In this document: piece by piece, positions 5,877 through 42,769 of the stretch
Layout: the number at the start of each line of letters is the position of its first letter
How positions within the stretch are numbered: the stretch's first letter is position 1
Origin: a virus
Strand: one strand, 5' to 3'
Virus record (IMG/VR): IMGVR_UViG_3300042923_000363
Span: 1 to 42,909 of that record
DNA: 42,909 bases
Made by a program: the position numbers and the translations under genes
Notes under the pieces: generated by a model
The model's input: the letters and a program-made list of their open reading frames with translations, nothing else
The model's database searches: none
Told to the model about the DNA's origin: nothing

Positions 5877-6373
5877 TTATTTACCTCCTTTCCCTGTTAA
5901 TTTGTAGAAGAATTCAGCCCCCGACATCTTCTTCTGTTCGTCCGATTTGTTCAGCACACGCATCATATGGTAAAAGTCCATATCATCAATGTCGCTGTAG
6001 GACCAACCCGCTTTTAACAGATCACGATAAACCTCGTCGATTCTGTCCAGCGCTTCGCGGGCAGTTACTTTTTTGCCGCTGCATCTTCCTTACCTAACCC
6101 GAGAACGCCTTTTTGGCGAATATCCGTCAACGTCGGAAGGAGTTCCTCTGATTTCAAACCGTCAAGGATCATTTCTTCAGTGACGCCCTTATCTTCAAAG
6201 AGGTGGACTACAAACGATAGAGAGGCATTGTACCATTCTGTTGCCTTTCGAGTTGGATCTTCGGCAATTTCTTGTATTTCAAGCGCTTTTCGCACATTTC
6301 GTGCAGAAACATAATCCTTTTCAAAAACTTCTTTACGCTTTGTTTTCGGATTAAAAAGTTCAAGTCTGATCAT
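5877..6373 (-). CDS. Tail assembly chaperone gpGT, -1 frameshift product
   Basis: At the end of gpG the zero frame reads GCA AAA AAG TAA. Slipping one base back on A AAA AAG avoids the stop and opens a frame that continues GTA ACT GCC CGC GAA and so on to TAA at 5877-5879, adding about 64 residues (for example AGWSYSDIDDMDFYHMMRVL and EFFYKLTGKGGK). This second frame has no start of its own and ends three bases before the tape-measure start, exactly as in lambda G/GT and its Gram-positive counterparts. The G part binds tail tube subunits and the T part is thought to coat the tape measure. The fusion is inferred from sequence alone but the geometry is textbook. Confidence 0.85.
6065..6373 (-). 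CDS. Tail assembly chaperone gpG
   Basis: A protein of 102 residues if started at ATG 6373 (AAGGGGTG lies six bases upstream). A GTG at 6382 would overlap that ribosome site and is less likely. The acidic, helical sequence (EKDYVSARNVRKALEIQEIAE, LLPTLTDIRQKGVLGLGK) and its place between the tail tube gene and the tape measure fit the small tail-assembly chaperones of Gram-positive siphophages. It ends with AAKK-stop on the slippery heptamer that yields gpGT. A terminator hairpin lies just upstream (6391-6420), so its mRNA level may be lowered relative to the tube protein. Confidence 0.85.
   Translation of the reverse strand: MIRLELFNPKTKRKEVFEKDYVSARNVRKALEIQEIAEDPTRKATEWYNASLSFVVHLFEDKGVTEEMILDGLKSEELLPTLTDIRQKGVLGLGKEDAAAKK
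6068..6074 (-). promoter_or_regulatory. Programmed -1 ribosomal frameshift heptamer A AAA AAG
   Basis: On the minus strand A AAA AAG (plus CTTTTTT) sits one base before the gpG stop codon, in phase X XXY YYZ with the gpG frame. This is the same heptamer as in E. coli dnaX and several tail-chaperone genes. The open -1 frame downstream supports function. Confidence 0.85.
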
Positions 6374-6390
6374 GAGTTTCACCCCTTATT

Positions 6391-6431: not shown

Positions 6432-6995
6432 TTAAGCTGCTGGTGGGAAGATAAAGGCATTGAATGCCGTTGACGTAAAGCCTGTATCCCCCTCGGACAC
6501 AACATAATACACTAACCCGTCACTGTTACGCCCAACAAAAGAGCCTTGCAACTGATCGGTCGAAGGAACAGCACCGTTGTTATCGCTTGTCTTAATATCA
6601 TCACCATCGAAAGCAAATTTTCCTTTAAGTAAAACAATGTGCCCAGTGTTACCATCCGGTAGATCTACCTGGCAATCAACCACTACATAAGGAGGATTAG
6701 TCGCCGATCCTACTGCGTATCCTGCCGTCTGTGAAGCCCAGCCAAGAATTTTGCTCTTAACATCTGCGGTTAAATCAAACAGCGAAAAAGTAGCTTTGAC
6801 ATCGCCGGTACCAAGCTGGGACACGTAAACAGCAATGTTTGACGCATAAACCTTATTTTGCTGTGCGGCAAGACCGCTGATATTCATTTCGATGGTGCCG
6901 TTTTTAGTCGTTGGATCAATAATGACCTGCTGAGTTACTTTCTCATTTTCGTCATAAATACCGACAACGGCTCTTTTAAAACCAATTGTTGACAT
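6432..6995 (-). CDS. Major tail tube protein (phi13-type)
   Basis: A protein of 187 residues with ATG at 6995 and GAGGAGATGG upstream. It begins with the typical FKRAVVGIYDENEKV and contains QNKVYASNIAVYVSQLGTGDVKATFSLFDL and KGKFAFDGDDIKTSDNN, the beta-rich pattern of the phi13-family phage major tail protein (TIGR01603-like). It polymerises into the tail tube around the tape measure. Its neighbours are the tail completion genes upstream and gpG downstream. A strong terminator right after the stop codon favours high expression of this gene over the downstream ones. Confidence 0.92.
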   Translation of the reverse strand: MSTIGFKRAVVGIYDENEKVTQQVIIDPTTKNGTIEMNISGLAAQQNKVYASNIAVYVSQLGTGDVKATFSLFDLTADVKSKILGWASQTAGYAVGSATNPPYVVVDCQVDLPDGNTGHIVLLKGKFAFDGDDIKTSDNNGAVPSTDQLQGSFVGRNSDGLVYYVVSEGDTGFTSTAFNAFIFPPAA

Positions 6996-7404: not shown

Positions 7405-7835
7405 AGCCCCAGCCCCTTTCGGATCACCGCTTCCATGATTAAGCGCGTACCCTCAGCCGTCTCATTCATCGTTTTTTCAATAAATGGATTGGTAGGTTGG
7501 TTAGCCGTACCTAACTCAACAAAATGCGCACGCCAGTAGGTATCGTGACCAAATCCAACAAGATAGGTTCCGTCCTGATCCTTACCGATAGTGACGTCAT
7601 CACGAAGATGTTTAAAAGTCGTCTTTTTTCCATATTTCTTATCCATCTGACGCTGGGCATGCCAACTACGCGTCGAATTTTTACCTTCGTAGGGCGTGTT
7701 ATGCTGCAGGGCTTCAGCCACAAAAAAAGCTGCTGCCTTTTCAGCGGTAAAACGAACTTTTTCATTAGCAAGGGCCAGCTTTTTCAAATTCTGGTCGATG
7801 CCATTCAAAGTGATCTTGACCTCATTTGCCATCAT
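7401..7835 (-). CDS. HK97 gp10-like neck/tail-completion protein
   Basis: I place the start at ATG 7835 (144 residues; AAGAAGGTG just upstream; overlaps the stop of the preceding gene). The ATG pair at 7835/7832 is ambiguous, and an upstream in-frame start at 7865 lies inside the preceding gene. The motif RAHFVELGTANQPTNPFIEKTMNE is the hallmark of the HK97-gp10-like family (phage minor neck protein). It follows the head-tail joining protein and overlaps the tail-terminator gene, the usual order in these phages. Confidence 0.88.
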   Translation of the reverse strand: MMANEVKITLNGIDQNLKKLALANEKVRFTAEKAAAFFVAEALQHNTPYEGKNSTRSWHAQRQMDKKYGKKTTFKHLRDDVTIGKDQDGTYLVGFGHDTYWRAHFVELGTANQPTNPFIEKTMNETAEGTRLIMEAVIRKGLGL

Positions 7836-8167
7836 GACACCTTCTTTGCCAGGATCGTATCCCATTCTTTCCGTATGCTATCCGGATTCAGGGCGATGAT
7901 CTTGTACGTATCGCCACGCCATTCGATGGTCATATCATTTGTAATGACGTATTCCCGTTGATAGCGGACGATCATACGCAAGCTGTCAGCAAGTTCGGTA
8001 CCGTAGTTTTTTACGACCTCAGACAGATACTGTGTTCGAACGGCAGCCCAGCATGAATAAAAGGGTTGTCCATTCTTTACCGGATGACCGTTTGCGTCTT
8101 TGCTTGATACCGGCTTGTAAAAGCTGATCCGTTCCGTCAGGTCGCTTGTACGTGCAATTTTTGGCAT
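7832..8167 (-). CDS. Head-tail joining (stopper) protein
   Basis: 111 residues, ATG at 8167 immediately after the connector stop. The pattern LTERISFYKPVSSKDANGH, then QREYVITNDMTIEWRGDTYKI and ending near EWDTILAKK, matches the SPP1 gp16 / phage head-tail joining protein family, a small beta-barrel that plugs the portal-connector channel. It is packed between the gp6-like connector and the gp10-like gene with no spacing, as a translationally coupled neck-protein set. Confidence 0.88.
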   Translation of the reverse strand: MPKIARTSDLTERISFYKPVSSKDANGHPVKNGQPFYSCWAAVRTQYLSEVVKNYGTELADSLRMIVRYQREYVITNDMTIEWRGDTYKIIALNPDSIRKEWDTILAKKVS

Positions 8168-8557
8168 TTAATACCACCCCAGACGTACAGACCTTGAAGT
8201 TAAATCAGTTGCAGCGAGTCCTTTAGGACTAGCAGGTGGCCTGTGGGACAGTTCCAGCAGATAAGATCCTTTTAGCTTCCAAATCATACTGGTGACGCCT
8301 AATGGATACTCAACAACCTGCTGGCGGTTTGATGCCTCGGTCGTCGCTGATCGGTTCTTGTAAGATGCATCAGCGAGCATGATAACAGCCGTGTCAAAAG
8401 TGGAATTGTTATCCCAAAAATCGACCATATTGTCATCGGTACCCACACTCGATTTTATTCGATCAATGGCGTCATTCAAAAACGTCGTTAATAAGGCATC
8501 ATGACCGCTGTAATCAATACTCAAAGCCGCTTTAAGCGAATCAAGAGTGACTGTCAA
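8168..8557 (-). CDS. Head-tail connector (gp6-like) with an N-terminal FN3 half-domain at its C-terminus
   Basis: 129 residues starting at TTG 8557, which overlaps the previous stop (TTTTGA) and has AGGTGATGG six bases upstream. Residues 1-100 (LKAALSIDYSGHDALLTTFLNDAIDRIKSS, DTAVIMLADASYKNRS) are the helical gp6-like head-tail connector. The last about 25 residues (PPASPKGLAATDLTSRSVRL then GWY-stop) look like strands A and B of a fibronectin type III domain and stop abruptly after the conserved Trp. The missing C-G strands match the product of the gene just upstream (8554-8757). The two pieces lie in reversed order, so simple readthrough cannot join them. Confidence 0.85.
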   Translation of the reverse strand: MTVTLDSLKAALSIDYSGHDALLTTFLNDAIDRIKSSVGTDDNMVDFWDNNSTFDTAVIMLADASYKNRSATTEASNRQQVVEYPLGVTSMIWKLKGSYLLELSHRPPASPKGLAATDLTSRSVRLGWY

Positions 8558-8757
8558 AATCCATCACCTACCAACGGATCTGTTAGTGGAAAATTAACCG
8601 CCAGCGGATCGCTTAATGGCGACTCACCGAGATTGTTCTGAGCAGACACCTGATACTGATGCGTTGACCCAGGCTGCACGTTTTCAACGGCGAAAACTGG
8701 ATCCTTCAAACCGGACTTAATCTTAACCCCGTCCTGGTAGATGTTATAAGTGTTCAT
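8554..8757 (-). CDS. Small FN3 half-domain protein (strands C-G)
   Basis: 67 residues, ATG at 8757 with GAGGTGG four bases upstream. The sequence (YNIYQDGVKIKSGL, PGSTHQYQVSAQNNLGESPL, SDPLAV) is the C-terminal two-thirds of a fibronectin type III domain without its first two strands. It lies between the capsid gene and the connector gene. The connector ends in the complementary N-terminal strands, so the two proteins could complete one fold between them on the head or neck. That is inference; the split itself is visible in the translations. Confidence 0.8.
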   Translation of the reverse strand: MNTYNIYQDGVKIKSGLKDPVFAVENVQPGSTHQYQVSAQNNLGESPLSDPLAVNFPLTDPLVGDGF

Positions 8758-8769
8758 AAAACCACCTCA

Positions 8770-10026
8770 TTACGGAGCAGTAGTCGTTGTAAACTTACCT
8801 TCTTGATCCGCAATACCCGTAAACGTAGCAGCAATCATCGCTTCGGTGTCCCAAAGTCGTGTATCGAATCGGTCAATCGCACGGATTTTCGTTTGATCCG
8901 TTTCAAACGCGCCGCCGCCAATGTTCGTTGCCATCAAGCTTAACTGCTCACGGTCAAACAGCTTGACGGTTTCTTTCATGTCCCCAACATACAGTGGGAA
9001 GATAGGTGCAGCCTGAGTGCCACCGTTCGGCATCCAACGGTCAGAAATAACCTTAACTGGACGGCCTAGTAGCATCGGGGCCTCAGAAAGAACCTTGCCC
9101 TCCATGATCGGAGTTTCTGAATTGCAGCAAACCATTTTCTGAAGCAAGTACTGACCAGTAGCCGTCTTTACCTTGTCCAGCACGTTAAATCCAGATTGAT
9201 TCGTAAACCAAGTCGCGGTCGCATGCAGGGCTGGATCAAGCATCGTGTTGAAAATATCTTTGAGCCCGTCAAAAGTGGTAATGGTCTTTTGCTGAGCTGC
9301 CGGCAGTGTAGCAAGCAGCGCCAGGATTTTCTTATTCCGAGTCACAACTTCTTTCTTCGCCAGCCACTGCGTAATGTAAGCCACTACGTTCTCCGGAGAA
9401 TCTTTCAGAAGCGTATTTGTCAGCGAGGAAATACCGGCGTGACGGTGGATGGACCAGCTGATTTTTTGTACGTTCGGATCATCGTTGGCTGGAATCGTTG
9501 CTGTTTCGTCATCAAGGTCAACAAATTCAGTAATATCTTTCCATTTTTCAAGGTTCATAGATCCTGTTTTCAGGGTAACAGGGCGAACATCCACATATTC
9601 TTGCAGCGCATCGTACTGACGAATTAGGCTATAAACCTGAACCTGAATATCAGGAGGAATCGTCAGCCCTAATCCTTCATCGTTACCATCAGGATCTGAA
9701 ATAACTAAGTCCTTATACTGCATTTCCTGACCACGAATTAGCTGTTTCAGATTAGTCACGAATCGGTCATGAACGGTAGGTTCGTTCACCTGAACATGTT
9801 TATTCTGTTCTGCACGCTGCGCACCAGCTGCTTTTGCTTCATCCAGCTGATCCTTAAGTGTGTCACGTTTGGCCTTTGCGGCTTCCATCTTGTCTTTATA
9901 GTCCTTCAACTGTACAACAGTAACAGAATCGTCGATCGCCGACTGCTGTACTTTTGCCTGAGCTTCAGCATATTTCTGGCCAGCTTCAATCCAGGCATCT
10001 TTCAGATCTTCAACGGTCATTGCCAT
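8770..10026 (-). CDS. Major capsid protein, HK97 fold, with N-terminal scaffold (delta) domain
   Basis: I choose ATG 10026 (418 residues; GAGGTG six bases upstream). A GTG at 10035 would overlap the ribosome site. Residues about 1-95 form a charged coiled coil (delta domain), probably removed by the adjacent ClpP-like protease. The rest shows HK97-family features: TIPPDIQVQVYSLIRQYDALQEYVDV, TATWFTNQSGFNVLDKVKTATGQYLL, the G-loop-like GRPVKVISDRWMPNG and a C-terminal segment ending in TFTGIADQEGKF. The order protease-capsid-connector is standard for this head type. Confidence 0.95.
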   Translation of the reverse strand: MAMTVEDLKDAWIEAGQKYAEAQAKVQQSAIDDSVTVVQLKDYKDKMEAAKAKRDTLKDQLDEAKAAGAQRAEQNKHVQVNEPTVHDRFVTNLKQLIRGQEMQYKDLVISDPDGNDEGLGLTIPPDIQVQVYSLIRQYDALQEYVDVRPVTLKTGSMNLEKWKDITEFVDLDDETATIPANDDPNVQKISWSIHRHAGISSLTNTLLKDSPENVVAYITQWLAKKEVVTRNKKILALLATLPAAQQKTITTFDGLKDIFNTMLDPALHATATWFTNQSGFNVLDKVKTATGQYLLQKMVCCNSETPIMEGKVLSEAPMLLGRPVKVISDRWMPNGGTQAAPIFPLYVGDMKETVKLFDREQLSLMATNIGGGAFETDQTKIRAIDRFDTRLWDTEAMIAATFTGIADQEGKFTTTTAP

Positions 10027-10027
10027 T

Positions 10028-10765
10028 TCATTCACCTCGTATAATTTTTAATTTCTGTAACAGTAGCGATGGTTGACTAGGTTCCTGGGGTGTTGGCCCA
10101 GGTCGATTCACTGGATCACCTCCGCCGGCAAGTGCTGCCGGCACGTGTTTGTATTTGGCAAACAACTTTTCAGAGACACAGGCTGCCGCCTGATTGGGTT
10201 CAAGAACCTCATCAGCGAGACCGTAGGAGACAGCTTCGTCTGCGCTCAACCAAGTCTCGGAATCCATCAGAGTGCTCAGTGTTTCAAGATCAAGCTTGTC
10301 TCCTGCTTTACCTAGATAGGATTGCTTCATGCTCTCGTTGATATGGTCTAGATCGTCTGCTGCTTTTCTCAAATCTGCTGCATTACCCCATAAACCTGTT
10401 AGGGGATTATGAATCATTAGCATCGCGTTTTTCGGCATAGAAATAGTGTCACCGCTCATGGCAATGACACTAGCAATACTTGCCGCAAGTCCATCAACAA
10501 AACAATGGACTTGCGCTTTATGCTGTTTAAGCATGTTTCCAATTGCGACGCCTTCAAAAACGGATCCTCCTGGGCTATTGATGTGTAGATTAATGGTTGA
10601 AACATCACCCATAGCATCAAGATTTTTTTTAAACGATGCTGCCGATTGATCAGTGTCATCCCATTCCCAACCTGCTGGGACAATTTCGCCAAACAAAAAA
10701 ACATCAGCCGATTGACCATCGGTCGATGCTTCCATTCGGTAAAACTTAAATTTTTGCTGGGTCAC
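10028..10765 (-). CDS. Prohead maturation protease, ClpP-like (S14)
   Basis: Start GTG 10765 is chosen because AAAGGAGGTG lies upstream and longer starts run deep into the portal gene; 245 residues. LHINSPGGSVFEG, the nucleophile-region DGLAASIASVIAMSG (Ser), MLMIHNPLTG (His) and the later ETWLSADEAVSYGLADEV are those of phage ClpP-like proteases. It overlaps the end of the portal gene and ends two bases from the capsid start. It is expected to cut the capsid delta domain during prohead maturation. The tail after about residue 200 is proline-rich and variable. Confidence 0.93.
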   Translation of the reverse strand: MTQQKFKFYRMEASTDGQSADVFLFGEIVPAGWEWDDTDQSAASFKKNLDAMGDVSTINLHINSPGGSVFEGVAIGNMLKQHKAQVHCFVDGLAASIASVIAMSGDTISMPKNAMLMIHNPLTGLWGNAADLRKAADDLDHINESMKQSYLGKAGDKLDLETLSTLMDSETWLSADEAVSYGLADEVLEPNQAAACVSEKLFAKYKHVPAALAGGGDPVNRPGPTPQEPSQPSLLLQKLKIIRGE

Positions 10766-37715: not shown

Positions 37716-38144
37716 TTATGAGAATTCAGCGACTAGCTTATCCAGTACAAGTTTCTGAACACCAGTGATGCCGCTTGCGAGTGCCGTATCGAGTTCCTCT
37801 TTAGACGGTATGATCGACGCATCAAGCGCAACCGTGTTTTTTACGTCCGTGTCAGCCGTCCGAAAAGAAATTACTGGGCCGCCATAGTTAATATTCAAAA
37901 GATGCACATAGATTGCGCCGCTTGTGATTCGGTCTTTGATCTTACTTTTGACGAGAGTCAAAAGCGCATCCGGCGCGATGTTCGCGTTGTATTCGCTTGA
38001 AAGTATTGTGATCGTCACTTCTTTAGGTGAGCTTTGCGCGTTTCCGAATAGCTCGGTGATCTGCGCTGTCACCGTTACATTGATAACCGTATTCGGGTCG
38101 TTTTGGTCATAGTTCAGTCTTGCCGATGGGTTACTTATTATCAT
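37716..38144 (-). CDS. Hypothetical structural/baseplate accessory protein (142 aa)
   Basis: ATG 38144 overlaps the stop of the tail fibre gene as ATGA, so it is translated with it. The sequence (VINVTVTAQITELFGNAQSS, EVTITILSSEYNANIAPDAL, SGAIYVHLLNINYGGPVISF) is beta-rich with a helical end. Its place after the tail-tip protein suggests a baseplate accessory or fibre-assembly protein. I do not recognise a family. Confidence 0.7.
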   Translation of the reverse strand: MIISNPSARLNYDQNDPNTVINVTVTAQITELFGNAQSSPKEVTITILSSEYNANIAPDALLTLVKSKIKDRITSGAIYVHLLNINYGGPVISFRTADTDVKNTVALDASIIPSKEELDTALASGITGVQKLVLDKLVAEFS

Positions 38145-41100
38145 GATTGAACACTTCCCTTTTGTAGTTTCGCGATCTCGACGAGCGCATTATCGAGCGC
38201 CGTTCTCATCGCTTCTTTATCATTACGCAATAACGCGAGTTCTCCCGATAGGCTCTTTATTGCATCCTTAATGATCGGAATTAGGAGGACCCATAGACGG
38301 TCATATTCAAGCCCCTCGATTTCACGCTCGCCGAAAATATCCGGCGCGCCGTGTTCGACGAAACGCTCGAGCCCATTCGCGGCGACTTCCTCGGCGATAA
38401 GTCCGATATGGCGTTGCAAACGACGATCGTCGGCGTCTGTATGTCCATTTTCATAATGACGGGCGAGCGCCTCAGATTCGGCCTTATCGTACCAAGTTGC
38501 GGGCGACAAATTGAGAAGCTGTTTCGCATAATCAACCGATATGTCATGGTCGATGTTGAGTTTGTACTTTGTCGCTGAGGTCGAGCGGCCAATCGTTCCG
38601 GATGACGTGACATACATGTTAGCGGCTGACCCATATGTCCGATCATAGATGTGGTCACCCCATGTACGTGAACCGGTACTATCATAACCAACACAAAAAC
38701 CCGCCCGCCAATTACCGGATGTATCAAATGCGCCAATTCGTGCGCCACCATATTGAGTATCGGCGCCGCCGCCGCCTGAGTCCCCATTTTCACCTAGCAA
38801 TTGACCTAGCCCATTATAATTTCGTGCTTGGTTGAAGTTATTAATCGAATGGCCCCCAACATCGAAATTACTGCCCGCTTGAATATATGCGAAGTCGTTT
38901 GCGTAATTAATAACTAATACGTTTCCGCTATTTTGCACAAGTGCGCGTCCGCCATTTCCGCGTCCCGTAGAGGCAGACCCTAGAGAAAAATCTGTGCCAT
39001 TCGCGCGCAATGCACCATTAGAAATGATGCCGCCACCCGTGATATTTCCCGATCCGGTAATACTCCCTGCCCCGGATATATTCCCGTACCCGTCTATCGT
39101 AACCAACATCGTTTGAATACTATTTGACGCAAATATATTTCCATCGGACATCGTAATCACGTCGTCATTTGAATCTCGTAACTCGATGCTTCCAGCCATG
39201 ATTTCCGTCTGTTCTGTTTTTCCATTACCATCGGCATTCGCCATATACGCCTTAAATAGATCGGACGTCATATAAGTAACGTTCCCTCTCGGGTCGCCTA
39301 TTGCCGTACATGATATGGGCGAGCCGGTCGCGGATGGCGCGATTTTAATTTGTGCCGTATAAGCGCCGTCGGATGACTTGCCCGACACGGTCACGGTTCC
39401 GGTAATATTGGCATTCGTCGTCGTGAGCGTGCCGTCGCTTGCTATTTGTGTGTTTGGTAGATTGAGAGAGCCCTTTGAAATTGCGATGCCGCTAGAATTA
39501 AGCACGACCCCACCTGATGCCGCCGAGATAGCACCTGTGACAGCCAACGTGCCGGCCAGCGTCAAGCTTTCTCCGCTAAAATTGACGCCGCTTATATCTC
39601 CGGCGACGATGTTCCCGCGCATCGTAAGATTTCCGGCTGTGTCGACTTGAAATTTTGTCGTTGCGCCGTTCACGATCTTAAAGCCGTTTGTCGAATCGAG
39701 ATCGACGATCGTTGTACCTGCTACGGCTGTGATACCGTTTGAATCAATCGTGACGCCTTTATATGATTGTGTCGTTTTAACTGCTTGATACGAATCGGTT
39801 ACGTCGATAACGACAACATCGTCAAAATAGAATACGTTTCCCGAGGTCACATCATTTCGAACTGATAATCGCACTGTGAATTGATCGTAGCCGTCGGGAA
39901 CTGTTACATATCCGGACAACTTGGTCCATGCTTGTGCTCCGTTTGCCGGAAGGTTTTGGACCGACGGCCACGCGTTCGCCCCGGTGTTTGTATTATGTTC
40001 ACTAATTTGTAGGCCGACCGTACCGGACCATGTTGTCTGACCGGCGAGTACCCACGCTTCACAATAATAGGTACGGCCGATACTTGTTTTCACCGTGCAA
40101 ACGTTAATATCTTGCACGCCGCCGTTTGCTGTTACTTTTCGAGATTGTTTTCCCGAATGGTATTGACTTGTATCATAGCCCTGCCCCGTCGCTTCGAAGC
40201 CGCTATCTTGTACAAGATTGTTTCCCGATGCTATCAACGTGTTTAGATTTGTTTGGACCGTATTCGCCGCATTCGTAGCCGCGGTGTTCCACGCCGCTGA
40301 TACACCGGGGTCGAGTGAACCGATGACGATCTTTTGCAAAGTCCAATCGCTCGCCGTATATGCGCCGCTCGCTCTCGCAACCGTACAATAATAAGTCGAC
40401 CCGCTTTGTGTCCATGTATCGCCGACGTCATATGGCGTGAACGGCGTCGAAGTAAAATTGCGTTTTTTCGATGCATCATAGAGCCGCGCCCATTGATAGT
40501 CGGAATACGTCGTCGATTCGGTCGCGCTCAGTTTATTGTAAGCGAGGCCGATGTATTGTTTGCCCGTCGGGTCGTCGCTCATGCCGGTTGTTGGTGTGTC
40601 GGCGTATTTTATCCATGTGTAAACGGTTGGACCTTGCGGTCCGGTTGCGCCTGTCGAACCCGTGGCCCCGGTATCACCTTGAGGCCCTTGTACACCTTGC
40701 GGGCCTTGATAGAGCGCCCACTGATAGTCAGCCGCATTTGTCGATTCGGTTTGCGTCGTTTTGTTGTAGGCGAGGCCGATGTACGTTTTCCCTGTCGGGT
40801 CATCGCTCATATTTGCGCCCGCCGAGCTTGTCGCGTACTTGACCCATGTATAAGTGGGCTGTCCATCGACCCCAGCTGGGCCCGGAACACCTTGCGGCCC
40901 TTGCAAGCCTTTGATTGGCTCCCATACGCCGTTAATCATCTGTTTCACAGCCACAGAATCATCCGTCGTGTTCGTCTGATTCCATACGTCGCCATTCTTC
41001 GCACCGGTTGGTGTTGCAGTGCCATAATAAATGTTCGGCTTGCTGTCTGCTGCCTCTTGAGCACTTTGGGCGACCTCGGCCGCTTGCTGTGCCGTGCTGT

Positions 41101-42769
41101 CGAAAACGTCGACCCACGCGCCACCGGTGAGCTTATGCGGCTCATAAACGGTTTTACCATCAACGACGCTTGTCTCATACCATGTCGAACCATCAGCGAG
41201 ACCGTCGGTGCTTGGCTCTGTATCGGAATAGATCGCACGTGGCAGATTAGCAATCGCATCATTGACCTCTTGCACCGCTTGCTCTTTATGATCGACCCAT
41301 TTCGTGCCATCGTATTGCAAGAGTGTGCTGGTTCCGTCTTGATTGTCGCGATACCATAAGTCATTCGTGATCGGATAGTTCGGCTCCTGAACGCTCAGCC
41401 CAAAAACCGTGTTCTTGGAATAGGTGATGACTTCAATATTATTGTTGATCTCATCATAGTTGACGGTTTCTTTCCAACCATCGGCCGTGTACGTAAACTC
41501 GGCAATGACATGGCCGTCGTCAGCGATCTTTTTCCATGTGTCATTAACGTCCGCCTCGGCTGGCGCATCCGGAGACCGATAAGTGGTACTTTTACCGTCC
41601 GCCTTTGCCTCGGCAGCGCTCGCCCGATTTTTTGCATCAACGGCGATTTGATTAATGGCAGCGGCTTGCGTTTGCAGACGTGTAATATCATCCGGTGTCA
41701 CCACACGAATTTCCACGAACTCGCCGATGACCACTTGATTATTTGTCGGGTTCGCTTCGCTTGTCTGTTTTTGAATGATCCGCGCTTCCAGATAAAGTTG
41801 CGGCTGCATATCCGTATCGATAATATAGCCCTGATCACCTAGATTGGCTTCAAAGCTGAGCGAAGCTGTCGTGACCGTGTAATTGTATTTCGGATGATTA
41901 TATAGGGCTAACTGCTGCTCGCCCCAGTTGAGCAACTCTGCGGCATTGGTCATGGCTGTATTTTGCGTAAAGCCTTCAAGATAGCGGCCACCAAAATTGT
42001 AAAGATCGTTCGCGGCGTCATCGACTATATAGTCTTTCCCGCCGTTGGCACCGGCAATGGAGATCGGATTGCTCGATCCGCTTGGTGTGCCGCCATAGAC
42101 ATATAACTTGGTAAAAAGTTGGTCGTCCACCATTTCACGGGTAATGTCGAGTAGGTTATGCCCGTATTCAATACGAAAGTTCTTTTCTTCGCCGAGCTTG
42201 TCAACGATATCCATCAAGCGAGACACAACACGGCCATTGTAGATTTCTACGTAAGCCCGGATTTCACAGCTATATAAAGTGTTAATCGCTTGCAAGGACG
42301 CTTGAGCCGTATCTCCTTGATTAAACGTGACATTTTGCGTGCTGCCGGTAAAGCCATTTTCAAAGATGCCCCAGTCCGTTTTCTGTAAACAGTGGGAAAA
42401 CGCATCTTTAATACTGCAGCTGTTAAACGTTCCCGCTTCGACCTGAGTATGCGCCAGTTCCCAGATCGCCAGATTGACGGCAGATACCTGTTTCACATGA
42501 ACCTGACCGACAATACCATCCGTGACGTTATTAATGCGATAGCAGTACCAACGGCCATCATCGCCTTGGTGCAAAAGGGAATACCCTTCCGCCATTTTCT
42601 CAGTCTCTGGATACCCGTATGGGACTTTGATCGATAACGTATCGTTCCAAAGTTTGCCACTATCATCCGCGATCTGCGTGGTGATCAGGTCATCATAAAA
42701 CGGGCAGCCGGACCCCTCAAGATCCAGCATGCCCGCCATTTTTAAATCTTGGTCAAGGATTGCATACAT
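38141..42769 (-). CDS. Tail-tip/fibre protein: endopeptidase-tail N-domain, collagen-like repeats, CBM-like domain, S74 chaperone C-domain
   Basis: 1542 residues, ATG 42769; AGAAGGTGA lies upstream within the end of Dit. Residues 1-370 form a prophage endopeptidase tail (Tal) region (YGYPETEKMAEGYSLLHQGD, GGTPSGSSNPISIAGANGGK). About 390-640 hold three related small modules ending in W-type motifs. About 640-800 hold collagen-like Gly-X-Y (GPQGVPGPAGVDGQP; GPQGDTGATGSTGATGPQG) around two similar modules (SDDPTGKTYIGLAYN and SDDPTGKQYIGLAYN). About 870-1000 hold a CBM_4_9-like jelly roll (NLVQDSGFEATGQGYDTSQY). The final about 150 residues match the S74 intramolecular chaperone (ATKYKLNIDHDISVDYAKQL, RHIGLIAEEVAANGLERF). 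It is the receptor-binding tip; the C-domain should cleave itself after trimer folding. Confidence 0.9.
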   Translation of the reverse strand: MYAILDQDLKMAGMLDLEGSGCPFYDDLITTQIADDSGKLWNDTLSIKVPYGYPETEKMAEGYSLLHQGDDGRWYCYRINNVTDGIVGQVHVKQVSAVNLAIWELAHTQVEAGTFNSCSIKDAFSHCLQKTDWGIFENGFTGSTQNVTFNQGDTAQASLQAINTLYSCEIRAYVEIYNGRVVSRLMDIVDKLGEEKNFRIEYGHNLLDITREMVDDQLFTKLYVYGGTPSGSSNPISIAGANGGKDYIVDDAANDLYNFGGRYLEGFTQNTAMTNAAELLNWGEQQLALYNHPKYNYTVTTASLSFEANLGDQGYIIDTDMQPQLYLEARIIQKQTSEANPTNNQVVIGEFVEIRVVTPDDITRLQTQAAAINQIAVDAKNRASAAEAKADGKSTTYRSPDAPAEADVNDTWKKIADDGHVIAEFTYTADGWKETVNYDEINNNIEVITYSKNTVFGLSVQEPNYPITNDLWYRDNQDGTSTLLQYDGTKWVDHKEQAVQEVNDAIANLPRAIYSDTEPSTDGLADGSTWYETSVVDGKTVYEPHKLTGGAWVDVFDSTAQQAAEVAQSAQEAADSKPNIYYGTATPTGAKNGDVWNQTNTTDDSVAVKQMINGVWEPIKGLQGPQGVPGPAGVDGQPTYTWVKYATSSAGANMSDDPTGKTYIGLAYNKTTQTESTNAADYQWALYQGPQGVQGPQGDTGATGSTGATGPQGPTVYTWIKYADTPTTGMSDDPTGKQYIGLAYNKLSATESTTYSDYQWARLYDASKKRNFTSTPFTPYDVGDTWTQSGSTYYCTVARASGAYTASDWTLQKIVIGSLDPGVSAAWNTAATNAANTVQTNLNTLIASGNNLVQDSGFEATGQGYDTSQYHSGKQSRKVTANGGVQDINVCTVKTSIGRTYYCEAWVLAGQTTWSGTVGLQISEHNTNTGANAWPSVQNLPANGAQAWTKLSGYVTVPDGYDQFTVRLSVRNDVTSGNVFYFDDVVVIDVTDSYQAVKTTQSYKGVTIDSNGITAVAGTTIVDLDSTNGFKIVNGATTKFQVDTAGNLTMRGNIVAGDISGVNFSGESLTLAGTLAVTGAISAASGGVVLNSSGIAISKGSLNLPNTQIASDGTLTTTNANITGTVTVSGKSSDGAYTAQIKIAPSATGSPISCTAIGDPRGNVTYMTSDLFKAYMANADGNGKTEQTEIMAGSIELRDSNDDVITMSDGNIFASNSIQTMLVTIDGYGNISGAGSITGSGNITGGGIISNGALRANGTDFSLGSASTGRGNGGRALVQNSGNVLVINYANDFAYIQAGSNFDVGGHSINNFNQARNYNGLGQLLGENGDSGGGGADTQYGGARIGAFDTSGNWRAGFCVGYDSTGSRTWGDHIYDRTYGSAANMYVTSSGTIGRSTSATKYKLNIDHDISVDYAKQLLNLSPATWYDKAESEALARHYENGHTDADDRRLQRHIGLIAEEVAANGLERFVEHGAPDIFGEREIEGLEYDRLWVLLIPIIKDAIKSLSGELALLRNDKEAMRTALDNALVEIAKLQKGSVQS

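Follow-up and report, generated by a model that had tools for sequence, protein, structure and literature searches.

A fibronectin type III domain divided between the head-tail connector and a small neighboring protein of a phage, and its likely completion between chains

A fibronectin type III (FN3) fold is divided between two adjacent genes in the phage DNA analyzed here, IMG/VR record IMGVR_UViG_3300042923_000363 (positions 1 to 42,909; this whole 42,909-nucleotide stretch is referred to as the window). The head-tail connector ends in FN3 strands A-B, and a separate 67-amino-acid (aa) protein encoded upstream begins with the complementary strands C-G. The split is conserved, its two halves co-occur, a single adaptor gene accompanies two tags in several genomes, and a homologous pair has a crystal structure as precedent. 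We consider it likely that the connector A-B hairpin and the 67-aa protein together form one FN3 domain, completed between chains by β-strand complementation; the complex in the window's phage is inferred.

The genes of the locus lie on the minus strand in the order major capsid protein (MCP), C-G gene, connector, head closure. The features used below are as follows:

8770..10035, minus strand: MCP (PF05065, 124 bits), ending ...TTTTAP followed by TAA TGA
8762..8767, minus strand: Shine-Dalgarno-like AGGTGG, 5′ of the C-G gene ATG, read directly in TAATGAGGTGGTTTTATG
8554..8757, minus strand: small C-G gene, 67 aa, FN3 strands C-G (MNTYNIYQDGVKIKSGL...VSAQNNLGESPLSDPLAV) plus a 13-residue tail
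8563..8569, minus strand: Shine-Dalgarno-like AGGTGAT, within the C-G gene, 5 nt 5′ of the connector TTG
8168..8557, minus strand: head-tail connector (gp6-like, Ad1), 129 aa, TTG start, PF05135 and phrog_40
8171..8233, minus strand: A-B tail, connector residues 109-129, ASPKGLAATDLTSRSVRLGWY, directly 5′ of the stop, assigned by the A-B HMM
7832..8167, minus strand: head closure
6432..6995, minus strand: major tail protein (PF04630), ending ...FIFPPAA before its stop

The connector meets the requirement for membership of PF05135 (43.7 bits; cutoff, 21.2) and matches phrog_40 at E 3.7e-20. Because PF05135 spans residues 3-92 only, residues from about 105 to 129 constitute an appendage. This appendage carries FN3 strands A-B and ends ...SPKGLAATDLTSRSVRLGWY, with the stop directly after GWY; it is in frame with the connector, and no frameshift is used. 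The first residues of the 67-aa protein already form strand C, strand G is followed by the 13-residue tail, and the Big2 Ig domain added by most relatives is absent (the C-G protein of phage vB_BpsS-140 is likewise short, at 66 aa). The stop of the C-G gene overlaps the connector start (TTGA), and each gene has its own ribosome-binding-like site, suggesting that their translation is coupled. The internal Shine-Dalgarno arrangement is repeated in L009, a contig of Sporolactobacillus shoreae, as GGGTGAT before the connector GTG. Unlike in relatives, no A-B tail was found on the window's MCP by the A-B HMM in six frames, and a search for a second tag on the major tail protein likewise found none in any frame. 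Readthrough from the MCP gene into the C-G gene was considered and rejected: although the two share a frame, TAA TGA intervenes, and L009 has them in different frames, which means that such a fusion is not conserved. Elsewhere in the window, a minus-strand gene at 6065-6382, between the major tail protein and the tape measure, occupies the position of a tail assembly chaperone, and 38141-42769 (minus strand) encodes a 1542-aa tail fiber-like protein with collagen-like GPQG stretches, whose C terminus resembles an intramolecular chaperone domain.

Profile searches support the assignment of both pieces to one fold. With the window left out, an A-B HMM was trained on 23 tails from other phages and then run over 1385 segments of the window's six-frame translation. 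The connector tail gave the sole significant match (E 0.0015; HMM positions 2-19), which ends 1 residue short of the stop; the next-best match had an E value of 0.41. The C-G profile matched the 67-aa gene at E 4.5e-28, its sole match in the record. Pfam fn3 (PF00041) did not match the window's A-B half alone and gave 16.0 bits for C-G alone. Joined as A-B + C-G, the halves scored 24.4 bits over profile positions 2-83 of 84, compared to 16.6 bits for a control in which A-B was shuffled. The joined score falls slightly under the Pfam cutoff of 25, which is a point against the one-domain reading; the joined halves of L009 exceed the cutoff (33.2 bits), and other joined pairs reach 40-45 bits. 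A preliminary description, made from the sequence alone, had claimed that the connector ends in FN3 strands A-B followed by GWY-stop, that the upstream small gene begins with strands C-G, and that this reversed order rules out fusion by readthrough or frameshift. All three claims held: the first by coordinates, minus strand orientation and the A-B HMM, the second by the C-G profile and Pfam fn3, and the third by gene order.

Structural modeling led to a precedent. When A-B and C-G of locus L015 were read through the intervening stop, a full seven-strand FN3 model was obtained (pLDDT 89.8, pTM 0.81), with 308 PDB matches at E ≤0.001, those listed being mostly FN3-containing chains. The AlphaFold model of the window's C-G alone contained four strands only (pLDDT 86), and the fair confidence of this prediction leaves it possible that C-G is stable unpaired. 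In Foldseek, the only match of this C-G model below 1e-3 was 5e7t_B, BppA of Lactococcus phage Tuc2009 (E 2.4e-4, 1.3 Å, 34% identity). In the 5E7T crystal structure, the C-terminal extension of Tuc2009 BppU and a 50-aa half of BppA make up one titin-like (Ig-type) domain. BppU ends in KPPTNLIVSDVTSTSAKISWENGG directly before its stop and is matched by the A-B HMM at E 5e-7; the C-G HMM matches BppA residues 231-282 (26 bits). A solved structure is therefore available for a homologous pair, with the domain completed between two virion proteins, a reading of 5E7T that is based on the wording of a review together with sequence, not on coordinates. No split structure was recognized in the PDB by sequence alone; the precedent surfaced through the fold search.

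A close relative of the window, L009, has the same layout and a connector ending in PPAQPQGLATTDLTSRSVHLGWY before the stop. The pN/pS ratio was 0.19 for both the A-B tail and the connector core and 0.16 for C-G, with dS saturated; within that limit, both halves are under purifying selection. Because both are conserved in the window and L009, a decaying relic is unlikely. Another Sporolactobacillaceae prophage, L055, has its A-B half behind the MCP and a homologous connector without A-B, and L056 and L103-L106 have neither C-G nor an A-B tag, so the acceptor tag appears on the connector only in the window/L009 lineage. Neither viral nor genome contigs yielded a match when scanned with only the connector. 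A competing explanation is that the halves are nonfunctional remnants of a connector-FN3 or capsid-FN3 fusion that underwent tandem duplication and permutation. In its favor are the permuted order, the differing carriers of A-B among relatives, and related Bacillus subtilis phages (L090-L092) with an unsplit FN3 behind the tail tube, A-B and C-G lying in one frame (a single open reading frame also holds both in L095 and L096). Against it stand the purifying selection on both halves in L009, the sharp conserved stop after tryptophan, the ribosome-binding sites and overlapping genes, and the joint absence of both halves elsewhere. We regard this explanation as improbable.

The same split, which the preliminary description had proposed looking for in relatives, is widespread. 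Each of the 22 loci surveyed in which a gene starts with C-G has at least one A-B tail, giving 34 tails in total that end 0-6 residues before a stop, and no A-B tails were found on the reverse strand or in the reversed sequence of these loci. A few of the 22 are near relatives of each other, and many of the 34 tails trained the A-B HMM; several did not, including those of the window and BppU. Tails were also present in eight of eight later loci with a gene-initial C-G (L108, L109, L116, L118, and L120-L123), the MCP tail of L122 being under the HMM threshold yet readable. In Carnobacterium cd4, Enterococcus VD13, and many IMG/VR phages, the C-G gene lies 3′ of the MCP gene and usually continues into a Big2 Ig domain; the A-B half sits past the MCP stop in a different frame and ends W-x-stop, and a second A-B half is often found behind the tail-tube gene. 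A +1 shift at CCC-stop, the site used for SPP1 gp17.1*, reaches 26 of the 33 tails outside the window. The author of the preliminary description could not see that gene order is incidental: elsewhere A-B sits on the capsid or tail tube, usually by +1 frameshift, and only the carrier differs.

Completion in trans is supported by genomes with two tags. Exactly one C-G was found in each of 13 records searched whole, and 9 of the 13 carry A-B tails behind both the MCP and the major tail protein, the tail-tube tag having no C-G after it. With one C-G and two A-B tails per record, completion, if any, must therefore be between chains; the tail-tube tag could be completed only by the protein of the gene behind the capsid, and gene order is therefore irrelevant. 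These genomes also argue against synthesis of the halves as a single chain by readthrough, frameshift, or ribosome bypass. That explanation draws support from phages such as SPP1 that use frameshifting to add FN3 or Ig domains to their tail tube, and from L015, L016, and L019, in which A-B directly neighbors C-G and shares its frame. The window's gene order, with C-G before A-B, makes it impossible there, and it conflicts with the two-tag genomes, in which only one C-G is present, and with C-G genes that have their own start. We consider it all but excluded.

The survey also yielded several unusual arrangements. In L121 (5995-6250) and L122 (6001-6250), the C terminus of the C-G protein is itself a second A-B tail, TDEPHEPPEEPGGLSSTGNTDTTVDLGWN followed by the stop; such a permuted C-G/A-B protein may chain head to tail into FN3 fibers or close on itself. 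L116 (5573-5932) has two successive A-B tails in different frames upstream of a single C-G gene. In L055 (898-1500), a threonine-rich linker connects the C-G half to a second, complete FN3 domain, apparently a decoration displayed via the split joint. L037 (CP121460.1), titled a Prescottella defluvii plasmid, carries the A-B tail found on the capsid side in Enterococcus VD13-like phages, along with their C-G gene, and is probably a phage contig listed under the wrong host. Enterococcus phage C-G genes in H25, H32, H40, H128, and H151 carry the annotation chitinase or major tail protein, which apparently stems from FN3 similarity and looks misleading.

The preliminary description had left strand complementation and permutation leftovers as alternatives, and had named relatives with one piece degenerate or missing as refuting; such relatives were looked for and this was not met. 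Complementation is favored because the halves are intact and under purifying selection in a relative, are jointly absent in related phages, must act in trans in two-tag genomes, and have the BppU/BppA crystal pair as precedent. We propose that the C-G protein would snap onto the connector A-B hairpin and, anchored on the connector ring, form a small, minimal FN3 decoration at the neck, with at most 12 copies should the ring be dodecameric, as in other siphophages (the Douge adaptor ring is a dodecamer). More generally, A-B would be a movable acceptor tag at the extreme C terminus of a virion protein and C-G its adaptor, with the tag carried by capsid or tail-tube proteins (usually via +1 at CCC-stop), by the connector in the window, and by BppU in Tuc2009. 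The window's pair would be one member of a split-FN3 docking system that is widespread in phages of Gram-positive hosts. The complex in the window's phage is inferred without direct evidence, as are its copy number, exposure, and function. By analogy with SPP1 gp17.1* and BppA, weak binding of the completed FN3 to the cell surface is likely; since the window's protein is without the Ig domain found in most relatives, its role at the neck could also be purely structural. A point against our proposal is that the tag occurs on the connector in two phages only, the window and the Sporolactobacillus prophage L009. In addition, the connector C-arm of Douge packs against the portal, so the window's connector tail might be partly buried. 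Both pieces could instead be used separately, A-B packing on the portal or neck and C-G dimerizing or binding elsewhere. The Douge C-arm contacts and the fair confidence of the C-G model alone favor this reading, which we nevertheless find unlikely: the A-B tail is specifically FN3-like, of the same type as the tail with which BppU engages the C-G of BppA, and complementary halves of one fold that are jointly present or absent are hard to explain otherwise.

Head and tail decorations are usually viewed in one of two ways: as independent proteins that have a binding site of their own, or as fusion domains produced by frameshifting. Complementation of a split FN3 would be a third route across many phages, in which the frame stops after two strands and a separate protein gives the remainder. 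Such a split would account for short frameshift extensions that seemingly encode nothing, for small genes labeled chitinase or major tail protein, and for one decoration on several virion parts. The joint itself was already known from one baseplate; what is new is a widespread, movable docking tag, to which the window contributes a new carrier, the neck connector, and shows gene order to be irrelevant. A bolder reading, which we think likely, is a general split-FN3 tag-and-catcher of Gram-positive phages with a noncovalent joint, in which one C-G would serve several A-B carriers (capsid, tail tube, connector, and baseplate), the dose would be set by +1 frameshifting, and fibers could form in L121/L122, where C-G ends in its own A-B tag. 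If functional in vitro, it would provide a compact pairing tag of about 20 residues. No description of split FN3 as a general system on capsids, tail tubes, or connectors was found in the open-access literature searched, although absence there is not proof.

Among known systems, two Listeria phages were rejected as proteomic precedents, as the PSA extensions are not A-B and A118 adds a Big2 domain to its tail protein. The Ig-like and FN3 folds that decorate capsid and tail proteins of phages (Fraser et al. 2006; review, PMC8718954) are likewise small β-sandwich domains on virion surfaces, mobile between proteins, but they are a covalent part of one chain, whereas the split tag is inferred to be noncovalent. 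In SPP1, gp17.1* is an FN3 extension of the tail tube made via +1 frameshift at CCCUAA (PMC6316719). It resembles the present system in placing FN3 on a virion protein, and the window's relatives use the identical CCC-stop +1 site; in contrast, SPP1 has a complete FN3 in one chain, and in split phages the frame stops after strand B. The window meets neither criterion of the SPP1 type, having no +1 CCC-stop access and no complete FN3 in one chain. By general analogy, in chaperone-usher pili an incomplete Ig fold is completed by another protein's strands (donor-strand complementation), with one donated strand compared to a two-strand hairpin in split FN3. The closest likeness is to Tuc2009 BppU-BppA, where an A-B tail on one virion protein and C-G on another are both matched by HMMs from other phages and the structural search with the window's C-G ranks BppA first. 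The window meets the sequence criteria for this type of split, with an extreme C-terminal A-B, a stop after strand B, and a separate C-G protein without A-B; that its halves physically complete one domain is inferred from homology to 5E7T. In Tuc2009 the pair belongs to the baseplate, C-G lies at the C terminus of a protein with a carbohydrate-binding domain, and the A-B gene comes before the C-G gene, whereas in the window the head-tail connector carries A-B, C-G stands alone as a 67-aa protein, and the gene order is reversed.
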